A stretch of DNA of 33,563 nucleotides, from IMG/VR virus record IMGVR_UViG_3300009168_000039, positions 1 to 33,563 of that record, one strand, 5' to 3'. The notes beneath the pieces are model-generated. The model made no database searches. It had not been told where the DNA came from and saw only the letters and a program-made list of their open reading frames with translations. Below, piece after piece: positions 4,468 to 26,989 of this stretch. Both the position numbers and the translations under genes were made by a program. The stretch's first letter is position 1. Every line of letters starts with the position of its first letter. Origin of the DNA: a virus.

Positions 4468-6600
4468 TTAAATTAAATTTAAATTTACGACTTGTGTATT
4501 ATCATATTCAAGCCAACTACATTTATAAGAATCTTCTGTTATATTGTATGTATAATCTGTAAGTAAATAATGTCTTTCACTTGGATCTGCTGTATCAATC
4601 CAAGAAGTAAAAGGTTTCATTATCATTGGATAATGTAATGTTCCATCTATTTTTCTTCTATTTTTATTAAATAATTGAAATTTATCGCGTATTAACAAAT
4701 TAGATAAACTATAATATGTTGAAATATCTTCATCAATCCATAACATTGTTCTATTTTCATATGTCTCTCCATAAAATAAACCATTTTTATAATTAAGATT
4801 ATCTATATCAAATATTCTTAAATCAATAGTTTCTTTATTAAGTACATTATTATTAATTTCTGCAAGTATTCTATTATTTTGTAATCCTGAATTTGCAGAT
4901 ATTTTAAAATCTCCATAATGTGCATATAAATTAGTTCCAGTATAATTATTGGCATCTTCTAGACTTGTTTCCTCACCCATTAAACCAAATATAATATCAA
5001 AATCCCCACTTCCTAATGGCCAATCAGTAATCTTACCCATTGGTATATCAATATTAATTTCGGCTATTCCATTATTATCATCTAAATCTGATTTTTTAAT
5101 TTCTTTATGAATTAATGCATTTGAAAAAAGTGTAGTATAATAATAAGATTGATCATCTGTGTTGTATGCTACATATCTACCTCCTGGTGGTATTCTTATG
5201 AAAAAATTACATTGATAATCATAAATATTTGTTGAAGGGAGTGATGCATATAATGGTGCAAATTTCCACTTTAAATTAAGTGTTGTACCCAAACCTGCTG
5301 ATGAATCATCCGTAGTTTTTTCATCATAAATTGTCATTCTAAATCTTGTACATAATGAGGCTCTACTATTATCTCCTACACCATCATCATCTCTAGGTAT
5401 ATCATATCTATAAATTGAATTTCCTATTGTTTTATAGGGCATTCCTGGATATAAATAATAATTAGGAAGAGTTGGAAATGGTTGTTCTCTATCAAAACGA
5501 TATCCAATACTTGGATTTAAAAGATTTGAACCAATATAATATCCTGGATATTTATATCCATCAAATGGTATTGTACTATAATAAGCTTCCCATCCACGAA
5601 GAGGAGGATACATAGCTTCTGCAGTCAAGTTCCTTCGTTTTACTATTCCTAAGTCCGGACTTGTTAAATTAATATATTCTTCAATATCATTTTTAATTTC
5701 TAAATATTGTAATCCTGGAATCATTGAAATATTCTGGGATTGTCCTATAAAAGCTTTATCTGTAAAACTTGTAATTGGTAAAGTTACTGGAGTTTCACCA
5801 AAATCTATTTCACCTCCATTATCTTCATATCCATATGATAAATCTACATCATAAATAGTATAGTGTTTTTGATTAGCATCGGGCCAAGCATCAGGATATC
5901 TTTCTATATACCATCTATCATTCCACCAATATATATAACAATCTAACGGTTTTAATATATCTGTAATTATTTCTTTTGCACTATTACGCTCATTATCGTT
6001 TTTCCAAAATATTTCTTTATCTACACCAGTAAGATTAAAAACAGTTTTTGTATCTGTAACCATCGGACCAGGATATGTGCCTGAAGGTTCAAGCGTACAG
6101 TTAACACGTATATCATTTGCCTTTCCTGTTAATTTTAATGATTCATTAATTAAATTAATTAAACTCTCTCTTCCTGTAGTATCAATAATAGTTGGATGAA
6201 CATTATCTAATTTTGAAATATAATTTGATGCAGTTAAAGTAATTTTAGAATTATTTAAATATTTTTGTGTTACAACATCTGAATTAATAAATCCATCAAA
6301 CAATGTTACATGTGTAGTGCTATCAGATGCATTTATTACAACTCTAAATTCTTTTTCATTTAATGTTGCTATATCTTCAAGATCATACCAATTTGAAGCA
6401 TTATTAAGAATTGAAAAGGATGCACTTTGACCTATAATTGGATTAAACCAACTATCGTGTTTATAATCAACAGTAACACCATCAGATAATAAATGAAGTC
6501 TTGAAGCAGAACCATCATAATCCTTTTTTTGTATTGAAACTCTATAACCTACACCCCTCTTTGATGTTCCTGCTACATAATATTTTTCTGTATATGACAT
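4468..6600 (-). CDS. Tail-tip / baseplate hub-like protein (710 aa)
   Basis: It lies directly after the tape measure gene (3-base gap), where siphophages encode distal tail or tail-associated proteins. The N-terminal 150 residues (YRVSIQKKDYDG, HDSWFNPIIGQSASFSILNN, TLFDGFINSDVV, ITLTASNYISKLDN) look like the beta-rich hub domain often found in Bacteroidota phages. Further on is a segment with DILKPLDCYIYWWNDRWYIERYP. The rest is Tyr- and Asn-rich with no catalytic motif that I recognise. It probably connects the tail tube to the fibre proteins that follow. Function is inferred from position and general character. Confidence 0.65.
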   Translation of the reverse strand: MSYTEKYYVAGTSKRGVGYRVSIQKKDYDGSASRLHLLSDGVTVDYKHDSWFNPIIGQSASFSILNNASNWYDLEDIATLNEKEFRVVINASDSTTHVTLFDGFINSDVVTQKYLNNSKITLTASNYISKLDNVHPTIIDTTGRESLINLINESLKLTGKANDIRVNCTLEPSGTYPGPMVTDTKTVFNLTGVDKEIFWKNDNERNSAKEIITDILKPLDCYIYWWNDRWYIERYPDAWPDANQKHYTIYDVDLSYGYEDNGGEIDFGETPVTLPITSFTDKAFIGQSQNISMIPGLQYLEIKNDIEEYINLTSPDLGIVKRRNLTAEAMYPPLRGWEAYYSTIPFDGYKYPGYYIGSNLLNPSIGYRFDREQPFPTLPNYYLYPGMPYKTIGNSIYRYDIPRDDDGVGDNSRASLCTRFRMTIYDEKTTDDSSAGLGTTLNLKWKFAPLYASLPSTNIYDYQCNFFIRIPPGGRYVAYNTDDQSYYYTTLFSNALIHKEIKKSDLDDNNGIAEINIDIPMGKITDWPLGSGDFDIIFGLMGEETSLEDANNYTGTNLYAHYGDFKISANSGLQNNRILAEINNNVLNKETIDLRIFDIDNLNYKNGLFYGETYENRTMLWIDEDISTYYSLSNLLIRDKFQLFNKNRRKIDGTLHYPMIMKPFTSWIDTADPSERHYLLTDYTYNITEDSYKCSWLEYDNTQVVNLNLI

Positions 6601-19752: not shown

Positions 19753-20180
19753 TATAATTGTCCATAATTATTTTCAATCCCTTTATTTTCATGATAATGA
19801 TTTACATTAACATATATCTTATATCTTTTTAATCTTAATCCTTTCATCATTATACTACTAAAGTACTGTAGCATTTCTGTATCGTGCGGTCTACCATTGA
19901 TAGCACACTCACTCCTAAAGTTCGCTATAGTTATAACTCTTTTATTAACTACTAAAAATTGTACAGACAACAGACAGGCGTGATTAAGGTTGTCGTTAGT
20001 CATTATCAATGCATTACGACTACCAGGATTCTTTTGTAGAATATCAATCATTGTTGGTAACAAAGGCAGAACCCTAAGGCGATAGCACGTTTCGTCAACT
20101 ATATCATTATACTTAATAAAATCATAGTGATTAACAAATTTGAAAGGCATTACATAATGGTAATTTATCTTTGGTTGCAT
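19752..20180 (-). CDS. Miniature thymidylate synthase-fold protein (142 aa)
   Basis: Residues about 45-130 align by eye with the core of thymidylate synthase (ThyA). NPGSRNALIMTND matches the PxxRRxI phosphate-binding strand. C69 sits six residues before F75 of VQF, as the catalytic Cys does before QF. FRS (88-90), then G96, P98 and D100, match RSxxxxxGxP(F)N, and Y129 matches the substrate-binding Tyr. The Asn of ThyA that reads the pyrimidine is Asp here, a change known to shift specificity from dUMP towards dCMP in hydroxymethylases. The enzyme is about half normal length and lacks the folate-binding C-terminus. It could be a reduced nucleotide-modifying enzyme or a repurposed protein. Confidence 0.55.
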   Translation of the reverse strand: MQPKINYHYVMPFKFVNHYDFIKYNDIVDETCYRLRVLPLLPTMIDILQKNPGSRNALIMTNDNLNHACLLSVQFLVVNKRVITIANFRSECAINGRPHDTEMLQYFSSIMMKGLRLKRYKIYVNVNHYHENKGIENNYGQL

Positions 20181-20348: not shown

Positions 20349-20954
20349 CTATTCATCATCGGTTACCTTAATGTTACTAATTATTACCTTAATGTTACTA
20401 ATTGTTACCTTAATGTTACTATTTATTACCTTAATGTTACTAATTTCTTTTAATATTTTTCTTTTAATACACATTTCTTTATTACTTATATTATCAAATA
20501 CAGATTTAATAAATTCATTTATATTATAAGTATACGTATTCTGAAATGTCATACGAAGTATACTATAAAATTTTAATATAAATAATAATTGAGTTTTAGT
20601 AAGTTTTGTATATATTAATTCTTCAGCAACTTTAATAGGAATCTTATAATATGTATAATTTCTTAAACTATTTCTTAACTGAGTTAATTGTTCCTTTGCT
20701 TTTTGGGGGTTTGATTTATCGATAACTGTATTTTTTATTTTTAATATTTGATCAATTTTAGGTTTTAAGTATGATAAATATTTGAAATCTCTTTTAAATC
20801 TAATATTTGATTTATGATATAATATAGTTTTAAGATTGATTTTTAAATTTGTATTTAATGCAATTAAAATTAATTTTATTTGGTTACATGTTAAGTATTT
20901 AAATTCTATATCTAAATCATCAGTAATAATTATACTTTTAATAATTTTTTTCAT
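20349..20954 (-). CDS. Probable replication initiator with iterons in its 3' end (201 aa)
   Basis: A very basic, helical protein. The N-terminal part (YLTCNQIKLILIALNTNLK) and the middle (KVAEELIYTKLTKTQLLFILKFYSIL) recall the winged-helix halves of plasmid Rep_3-type initiators, though identity is weak. The C-terminus repeats SNIKVxx four times because the gene end contains four 21-bp direct repeats. Origin iterons inside an initiator gene are known from lambdoid O genes. No other replication protein is recognisable in the genome, so this gene is the best candidate for recruiting host replication. Its start is embedded in a strong RNA structure (20957-21032). Alternative: a DNA-binding regulator. 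Confidence 0.5.
   Translation of the reverse strand: MKKIIKSIIITDDLDIEFKYLTCNQIKLILIALNTNLKINLKTILYHKSNIRFKRDFKYLSYLKPKIDQILKIKNTVIDKSNPQKAKEQLTQLRNSLRNYTYYKIPIKVAEELIYTKLTKTQLLFILKFYSILRMTFQNTYTYNINEFIKSVFDNISNKEMCIKRKILKEISNIKVINSNIKVTISNIKVIISNIKVTDDE
20363..20446. repeat. Four tandem 21-bp iterons (origin candidate)
   Basis: Units start at 20363, 20384, 20405 and 20426, each beginning TTACCTTAATGTTACTA with one or two changes at the end. The period of 21 bp is two helical turns, so all copies face the same side of DNA. Each unit holds two TTAC half-sites 11 bases apart. They encode the four SNIKVxx repeats of the putative initiator. Confidence 0.85.
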
Positions 20955-20956
20955 TG

Positions 20957-21032
20957 GGCAATGGTTATTTTATATGTCGATGACCCAGTACTTCAATAGC
21001 CATTGCCAACTATATCCATACTGGGGTCGACA
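20957..21032 (-). promoter_or_regulatory. Interleaved inverted repeats in the initiator leader: pseudoknot or translational switch
   Basis: In transcript order: TGTCGACCCCAGTA (21032-21019), GGCAATGGCTATT (21007-20995), TACTGGGTCATCGACA (20990-20975), AATAACCATTGCC (20969-20957). The first pairs with the third and the second with the fourth, in an interleaved order. The last strand ends 2 bases before the ATG at 20954, so forming this stem would block ribosome entry. The loop across the first stem is only 5 bases, so the two full stems may exclude each other. Confidence 0.65.
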
Positions 21033-21098
21033 TTATATTTTTATATATTCATTTTAAATTTTTATTAATTAAATTTAATATATTTTATTTTAAATTAA

Positions 21099-21146
21099 AA
21101 AGCCCCGAATATCATCTTCATCCACTAAGAGATATACCGGGGCTTT
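21099..21146 (-). terminator. Long-loop terminator hairpin downstream of the 84-residue gene
   Basis: AAAGCCCCG (21099-21107) and CGGGGCTTT (21138-21146) form a 9-bp stem around a 30-base loop, within which ATATC/GATAT can pair further. On the minus strand the stem is followed by T residues (TTTTTAATTTAAAA). It ends the early transcript before the initiator promoter. Confidence 0.65.
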
Positions 21147-21208
21147 GTTGAAACAATTGAACGATATTTTTAAAATGTGGATGATTTTATATTTTCTATA
21201 TTATATAT

Positions 21209-21483: not shown

Positions 21484-21531
21484 ATTATATATATTCAAGA
21501 CAATTTTTCAGCAAAAAGCCACTTAATGTAA
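21484..21531 (-). promoter_or_regulatory. Early promoter element, copy A
   Basis: On the minus strand ACATTAAGTGG (21529-21519) is followed after 22 bases by GAATATATATAATAAA. The 84-residue gene starts about 20 bases later. Copy B is nearly identical over some 45 bases. Copies C and D keep the TAAGTGG box, spacing and TATATA box. Promoter function is inferred. Confidence 0.6.
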
Positions 21532-21533
21532 GT

Positions 21534-21618
21534 AACTAGAGAACCTCCGAGGCGCGTAGTCTATATTCAAAATTTGCAAGTTTGTTACGATGTATCGCGA
21601 CCCTCGTTACTACTAGTT
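21534..21618. other. GC-richer structured intergenic element
   Basis: Between the stop of the 110-residue gene and promoter copy A. AACTAG (21534-21539) pairs with CTAGTT (21613-21618), and CGAGG-CGCG (21548-21556) pairs with CGCG-a-CCTCG (21596-21606). It is unusually GC-rich for this genome, which suggests a structured RNA or terminator. I recognise no known RNA family. Confidence 0.4.
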
Positions 21619-21973: not shown

Positions 21974-22022
21974 TTATTATATATATTCAAGACAATTTTT
22001 CAGCAAAGACCACTTAATGTAA
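21974..22022 (-). promoter_or_regulatory. Early promoter element, copy B
   Basis: ACATTAAGTGG (22020-22010 on the minus strand), then after 21 bases GAATATATATAATAAA, 12 bases before the start of the 110-residue gene. It differs from copy A only by small changes in the spacer. Confidence 0.6.
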
Positions 22023-23034: not shown

Positions 23035-23085
23035 TATTTTTATATATATTCACAGTCCAAATGTTTCATTTAACCACTTAGTGCA
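23035..23085 (-). promoter_or_regulatory. Early promoter element, copy D (divergent region)
   Basis: CACTAAGTGG (23083-23074, minus strand), 22-base spacer, then GAATATATATAAAAAT just before the HNH gene. It lies between two divergent genes (HNH on minus, 110-residue gene on plus). The bound factor could therefore control both. Confidence 0.5.
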
Positions 23086-26761: not shown

Positions 26762-26811
26762 TTTATTATATCTATTCATTTAAAAAATTGTTAAAAAGGC
26801 CACTTAATGTC
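26762..26811 (-). promoter_or_regulatory. Early promoter element, copy C
   Basis: ACATTAAGTGG (26810-26800, minus strand), 22-base spacer, then GAATAGATATAATAAA, about 23 bases before the ATG of the 79-residue gene. The spacer differs from copies A and B, so the conserved boxes stand out as the functional parts. Confidence 0.58.
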
Positions 26812-26883
26812 GGTTTTTTAAAAAACTTTAATTAAAACTTTAATATATAATCTATAGGTTAGCAACTAAAAAAATATTTAAGT

Positions 26884-26914
26884 AAAAAAACTTTATGATT
26901 TAAATCATAAAAGT
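26884..26914 (-). terminator. Minus-strand hairpin terminator
   Basis: The arms ACTTTATGATTT (26890-26901) and AAATCATAAAAGT (26902-26914) form a 12-bp hairpin. On the minus strand it is followed by seven T residues (complement of 26884-26890). It would back up the late terminator. Confidence 0.55.
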
Positions 26915-26917
26915 TAA

Positions 26918-26960
26918 CCTCTATGATTTTAAGGTTATAAGCCTATCATAGGGGTTTTTT
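26918..26960 (+). terminator. Plus-strand hairpin terminator with no obvious gene upstream
   Basis: CCTCTATGAT (26918-26927) pairs with ATCATAGGGG (26945-26954) with one G-T pair, followed by six T residues on the plus strand. No plus-strand protein gene precedes it, so it may end a small RNA or stop antisense transcription. Confidence 0.5.
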
Positions 26961-26989
26961 ATTATTAATAACGTATAAAATATGAACAT

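Follow-up and report, generated by a model that had tools for sequence, protein, structure and literature searches.

The C4 RNA shares a promoter with its target, and the upstream a1 and b1 copies also pair with it. In P1 and P7 the loops a' and b' of C4 are complementary to their targets, with the b' loop partly covering the ribosome-binding site, and specificity depends on a few loop bases, P1 and P7 being separated by a 4-nt difference (PMC5320573). C4 has the Rfam entry RF01695, the c4-a1b1 motif being listed too, and is recorded from Proteobacteria and phages of these bacteria (PMC2864571). The CI RNA of P4 is an antisense RNA located in the leader of P4's own replication genes, with seqA upstream and seqC downstream; it prevents expression of these genes in the lysogen and acts by premature transcription termination after processing (PMC4825925). 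IsrK of the Gifsy-1 prophage is a terminated short leader RNA whose trans target is the read-through mRNA transcribed from the promoter that both share (PMC4825925). In the ColIb-P9/IncB group, going by a table in PMC5415839 and the titles cited in PMC10724649, a pseudoknot in the Rep leader is activating and is disrupted by a countertranscribed antisense RNA.

The window analyzed here is a stretch of 33,563 nt that makes up the entire IMG/VR virus record IMGVR_UViG_3300009168_000039. Because it has an exact 123-bp direct terminal repeat, the genome is probably complete. Its GC content is 28%, the minus strand carries nearly all of its genes, and it encodes TerL, other structural-gene candidates and a serine recombinase. 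A related but broken TerL with three in-frame stops was found within a prophage remnant of Labilibacter sediminis (L042/L043), so the host of the window phage presumably belongs to the Bacteroidota.

The gene of interest is an open reading frame for a 201-aa candidate replication initiator on the minus strand (20352–20954, with its ATG at 20954 and stop at 20349–20351), which is 53% identical to a 213-aa protein of the relative L036. Pfam and NCBIfam profile searches gave no match to this protein, a PHROG search gave a single weak match to phrog_1017 (E 0.028; function unknown there), and a structure prediction was discarded as unusable (pLDDT 49). Iteron-type initiators can hold their origin within their own gene. 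Tandem Repeats Finder located an unstranded array of four 21-bp direct repeats with 93% matches at 20363–20445, occupying the last quarter of the gene at its 3' end, and this array supports the label of initiator that an earlier note on this DNA had attached to the frame starting at 20954. The L036 homologue has iterons of identical period and copy number (21 bp, 4). Next to the initiator, at 19755–20180 of the window, lies the gene for a 142-aa protein belonging to a conserved group of 140–154 aa that is also present at L002 6001, L025 6600, L036 6001 and L037 6001; the L025 homologue weakly resembles thymidylate synthase (Pfam E 2e-4, below the cut-off).

Two complementary pairs in the arrangement A-B-A'-B' had been described directly before this ATG, and they are present as located with small imperfections only. 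On the sense (minus) strand the order is the S1 5' arm, a ATGGATATAGTT region, A', GAAGT, the S1 3' arm, ATAAA, A2, CA and ATG 20954. Sequence and stem scan place the S1 5' arm, ATGTCGACCCCAGTAT, at 21018–21033 and the 3' arm, ACTGGGTCATCGACAT, at about 20974–20991; together they form hairpin S1 (21033–20974), with 15 bp, a small C/UCA interior loop and a duplex energy of −20.2 kcal/mol. Within its loop lies A' (GGCAATGGCTATT, 20995–21007, minus), which is complementary to A2 (AATAACCATTGCC, 20957–20969, minus), and A2 ends 2 nt ahead of the ATG. Pairing of A' with A2 covers 12 of 13 positions, with one C.A mismatch on the sense strand, and has a duplex energy of −15.6 kcal/mol. A −10-like box recognized by sequence, P2 (GAATATATAAA, 21040–21050, minus, with TATATA at 21047–21042), predicts a start near 21035, directly before S1, so that transcription from it would retain the first arm; L025 has AATGAATATATAA at the matching position. 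Six of the last 10 nt ahead of ATG 20954 are G or C. At the other 34 listed window starts this count has a median of 0 and never exceeds 3, and of all 35 starts this one alone is preceded by a G/C-rich segment, namely A2.

The earlier note had also remarked that the 5-base connecting loop seems too short for both full stems at once, and had called a two-state switch plausible. By geometric estimate, the full 13 and 15 bp pairings are indeed probably not possible together, but an 8-bp loop pairing should be compatible with S1, given the 9-nt linker that separates the foot of S1 from the 8-bp A2 core. Since A' sits inside the S1 loop, this A':A2 core does not compete with S1, and the idea of a switch between the arm pairs fares poorly; in relatives the segment that competes for A' is a third segment, A1, and not S1. 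The RNA folding tools applied do not model pseudoknots.

In an energy-based scan of both strands, no interleaved stem pair of the window scored better than the reported element, whose energies sum to −33.9 kcal/mol (minus strand) and −37.9 kcal/mol (plus strand) against −31.5 for the best of 52 whole-window dinucleotide shuffles. A second scan with lenient gap scoring proved too permissive and did not separate the element from shuffles. Neither did a simple architecture scan of the window alone, in which 0.29 chance matches per shuffled genome were obtained at the window's score, and where the window's element has a lower stem score than the relatives' loci found at the strict cut-off. Because these two scans do not separate the element from shuffles, the comparative evidence outweighs the single-sequence statistics. 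A comparison of G.U with A.C pairs as evidence for the plus strand being the RNA strand involved two positions only and was set aside; the fixed geometry to the AUG was given more weight instead.

A direct search for relatives of the initiator found none in IMG/VR, in phage and plasmid collections or in 395 genomes of one phylum. A DNA pattern of the arms gave three matches in IMG/VR that were discarded as chance, the partner arms being missing. L036 and L037 were reached via the 142-aa neighbour gene conserved beside the initiator, and L022, L023/L025 and others via TerL. L036 carries the only homologue of the initiator gene found, while L037, L025 and L022 have initiator-like genes other than the window's, those of L025 and L022 being weakly identified; iteron-type repeats occur at the initiator-like genes of the window, L036 and L037. 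The leader of L036 consists of A1 TTACTGTGCA (4815), a hairpin AATAAAGCCCC/GGGGCTTTATT (4858–4907) with loop TGCACAGTAG, followed by TTAAAATAAC, A2 CTGTGCAT, CA and ATG 4930. That of L037 has CTACTACTC (4596), hairpin AAAGACCTTAGAACC/GGTTCTAAGGTCTTT followed by TTT, loop GAGTAGTAG, A2 CTACTAC and AATG, and that of L025 has AAACCGTGA (4841), hairpin AAAAGAGGTTC/GAACCTCTTTT, loop GTCACGGTTT, A2 ACCGTGAC and CAATG. L022, which was found by a blind geometry scan once the pattern had been defined on the other phages, has ACTGGGCA (1153), hairpin GAAGGCCTCC/GGAGGCCTTC, loop TGCCCAGT, A2 ACTGGGCA, CT and ATG 1263. In all four, a hairpin that is often terminator-like carries a loop segment A' complementary to a short A2 at the start, and A' additionally matches an A1 near the predicted transcript 5' end. 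Judged from its sequence, the A1 of L025, which starts 2 nt past a −10-like box, may lie partly outside the transcript.

The strict pattern, which required a stem scoring 26 or more and A':A2 complementarity over 7 nt or more, was run on five contigs. It matched only at these initiator-like starts, apart from one mirror match on the opposite strand of L022, and the four loci found all have A1 and all lie at initiator-like genes. In 347 shuffle sets of the contigs, the pattern occurred 0.035 times per set, and 0.003 times when A1 was included. Across the comparative set of five independent phages, pairing each loop with its own A2 ranked first of 120 permutations (sum −67.4 versus −56.3 for the next best), and own loop with own A1 was likewise the best permutation. 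A2 starts at −10 in four phages and at −8 in L037; the arm sequences differ in every phage, and where they stand with respect to hairpin loop and AUG is fixed. Geometry and complementarity thus persist through sequence change in five phages. L036, L037, L025 and L022, which keep the loop-to-start complementarity with differing sequences, support the earlier note's proposal that a base-pairing device lies over the start of the initiator gene; the note had regarded a lack of arm compensation in relatives as grounds for rejection, and the retained complementarity of these four speaks in its favour. The TAAAATAA before A2 is ordinary start context in these phages, which indicates that the special feature is the conversion of a usually A/T spacer before the AUG into a loop target. 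TAAAATAAC, common before starts in these phages, was rejected as a marker of the device.

No strict copy was found in the scan of L002/L003 and L004, relatives with other initiators. At L004 829–939, we observed interleaved repeats over the first early-operon gene. They comprise AAATCTGTCA / TGACAGATTT as well as a helix of 21 bp, two of them G.U pairs, that covers ATG 916. There, the hairpin itself serves as the downstream arm, and any A2 would contain nothing but A and T; the locus may be a divergent form of the device.

Directly upstream of the reported element, hereafter module 2, the window contains a second interleaved element (module 1; 21099–21184, minus) that is absent from the earlier note. 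It has a terminator-like hairpin AAAGCCCCGG / TCGGGGCTTT (21099–21146, minus) that has a T run after it and GTGGATGA as part of its loop (21125–21118), and an A1, TCATCCAC (21177–21184, minus), that pairs with this loop at −14.0 kcal/mol. A promoter-like TAGATA-17-TATAAT, P1 (21200–21228, minus), scored 10/12 in a pattern scan as a consensus match only; module 1 A1 lies about 8 nt past the start predicted from it, a distance identical to that in L036, where the −10-like box is TATAAT. Module 1 has no A2, and module 2, with hairpin, A', A2 and its own −10-like box, has neither A1 nor a U-run. The module 1 stem AAAGCCCC/GGGGCTTT is common to the L036 leader hairpin, while A1 and A' both differ yet still match each other, which we read as a recognition word changed in concert on a kept scaffold. 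The module 1 loop does not match the window's A2, and its pairing with module 2 was not significant (61 of 300 shuffles were as good).

We believe, with a probability of roughly 0.6, that the element is a leader regulatory RNA controlling translation of the initiator, in which loop pairing shuts the ribosome site in cis and/or in trans. So read, the device appears to be an RNA lock on the replication of the phage, self-specific and maintained. We infer its transcription as RNA, repression by pairing, production of a short RNA and action in trans. The leader hairpin would present the recognition sequence A' in its loop, and A' would pair with A2 between TAAAATAA and the AUG; as A2 fills this segment, the pairing would close the ribosome-binding region. 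With A2 lying over −10 to −3 of the start, blocking is likelier than activation. In the relatives, A1 at the 5' end of the transcript would be a second target competing for A'. Since the relatives' hairpin is terminator-like, a short A'-bearing leader RNA could be released, which would act in trans on A2 of initiator mRNAs of the same specificity. The predicted outcome would be copy-number feedback together with immunity of the resident phage against its own kind, as with P4 CI RNA and P1 C4 RNA. The window phage would carry a doubled device, with A1 and the terminator hairpin in module 1 and the predicted promoter, hairpin and A2 in module 2; given what module 2 lacks, release of a short RNA there would need processing or module 1.

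Our best reading by analogy is that the element works most like C4 and CI, more than like ColIb/IncB, and is a variant of them, not a member. With C4 it shares a predicted same-strand leader RNA and a loop complementary to target segments, and the scan, duplex and permutation data agree in placing the same-strand complement of the loop on the downstream ribosome-binding region. C4 differs in that it controls an antirepressor and has three stem-loops, two recognition loops and an RNase P cut (77-nt RNA), whereas the element here has one hairpin and one loop and stands at an initiator gene in presumed Bacteroidota phages. The Rfam C4 model (RF01695) gave no match in the window at gathering score and none up to E = 1 in the window, L036, L022, L032 and the L037 leader, and an Rfam search at gathering and lax thresholds returned nothing relevant. 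As the C4 model fails, and transcripts and function are here predicted from sequence, we do not call the element a C4 member. In comparison with P4 CI, the order A1-A'-A2 corresponds to seqA-seqB-seqC and is found in L036, L037, L025 and L022; the window has it as two half-devices only, A1 and A' in module 1 and A' and A2 in module 2. The position in a replication-gene leader is likewise shared, at genes that are initiator-like (weakly so in L025 and L022). Unlike in P4 CI, the downstream target lies on the start codon and the hairpin itself is terminator-like, and no sequence relation is claimed. IsrK resembles the proposed model as a terminated short leader RNA with trans action on read-through mRNA, but it activates anrP translation via an upstream ORF and has another geometry.

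The earlier note had likened the element to ColIb-P9/IncB leaders, where the loop-to-start pseudoknot would activate initiator translation and a plus-strand antisense RNA, the complement of the hairpin, would block it. The likeness lies in RNA-level control of an initiator and in the same topology, a large-loop hairpin pairing with a segment beside the initiator start; moreover, the loop holds UUGGCA, resembling the UUGGCG loop motif in the title of a ColIb paper cited in PMC10724649, and the structure on the plus strand, which ends in TATATTTTTATA, has a slight edge in stability. This analogy holds poorly, since the pseudoknot there activates whereas the position of A2 here, on the ribosome-binding region itself and not upstream of an inhibitory stem, argues for blocking. 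The ColIb/IncB inhibitor is countertranscribed, and a leader peptide is translated upstream of Rep. A promoter pattern scan, which gave six promoter-like sites in total against a shuffle mean of 3.2, placed two plus-strand sites nearby and none upstream of the hairpin on that strand; neither a plus-strand promoter nor a gene for a leader peptide was identified for the element. A1, present in the relatives, has no ColIb/IncB equivalent and would be superfluous. We consider such activation unlikely. We also hold it improbable that the element is a transcription attenuator, with the terminator-like hairpin as output and A1:A' or A':A2 pairing altering termination instead of ribosome access. Sense-strand U-runs after the hairpin in L037, L036, window module 1 and L002 would suit attenuation, as would an A1:A' duplex stronger than A':A2 in L036, L037 and L022, but the reported module 2 hairpin is without a U-run, A2 is pinned to the start codon for no purpose that attenuation needs, and matching to the own loop is true of A2 as well as of A1.

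Inverted and direct copies near an iteron-bearing origin could serve as paired protein sites, in which case the repeats would act as DNA, as operators or recombination sites for a dimeric protein. A protein site is expected to keep its sequence, however, and here the sequences are wholly different between phages with 53% identical initiators while the positions to loop and AUG are fixed, which makes this reading very unlikely. Smallest of all is the probability of chance or of a functionless relic of duplication: AT-rich genomes give many weak stems, and the lenient and simple architecture scans do not set the window's element apart, but the energy scan beats all shuffles and the arrangement recurs at initiator-like starts in four other phages.

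Within the leader-RNA reading, we tentatively suggest, as a possibility short of an even chance, that each phage carries an A1/A'/A2 word of its own, set in a leader scaffold that is conserved, forming a rapidly diversifying RNA specificity system that determines which incoming phages or replicons of this kind would be shut down at their initiator. The divergence of words between phages with internal matching kept fits a specificity-dependent system (immunity or incompatibility), and neutral covariation could be the source of the same divergence. If the suggestion is true, an RNA-based immunity or incompatibility type would be readable straight from sequence. Phage replication and immunity are known to be under RNA control in a few Proteobacterial systems (C4, CI), and our searches of the open-licence literature yielded no account of such a device from Bacteroidota phages; a one-loop minimal version at the initiators of presumed Bacteroidota phages would show a wider spread of the principle. 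It would also offer a regulatory handle on uncultured temperate phages, with immunity groups predictable from an 8-nt leader word, and it would represent a family without conserved arm sequence that is invisible to covariance-model libraries and can be found by geometry.

Several other features were noted in these genomes. Proteins of ~385–400 aa with LDLKSSQ and SVHDS motifs, which we take to be reminiscent of family A-like polymerases (TV-Pol), are encoded at the initiator position at L025 4955–6166, L004 2079–3242 and L002 3315–4466, the one of L004 standing further down the early operon; those of L025 and L004 gave no Pfam match above the curated cut-off. Another intergenic region of L022 (1773–1912, minus) contains interleaved inverted repeats, TAAGTAAATCCCT / AGGGATTTTCTTA with TCTCTTTAATAAGGGAAGG / CCTTACTCTTTTTAAGGAGA. 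On the plus strand of the window, the intergenic stretch 26846–26963 holds three mutually exclusive stems ending in TCATAGGGGTTTTTTATT and looks like an attenuator or a terminator/antiterminator. Finally, a motif around CTTACATTAAGTGGC recurs ~20–35 bp upstream of TATATATAAT-like boxes at 21520–21535, 22005–22022, 23065–23085 and 26800–26815 of the window, at L002 4650–4665 and at L036 4752–4768, and probably represents a promoter or operator element of the phage that its relatives have in common with it.
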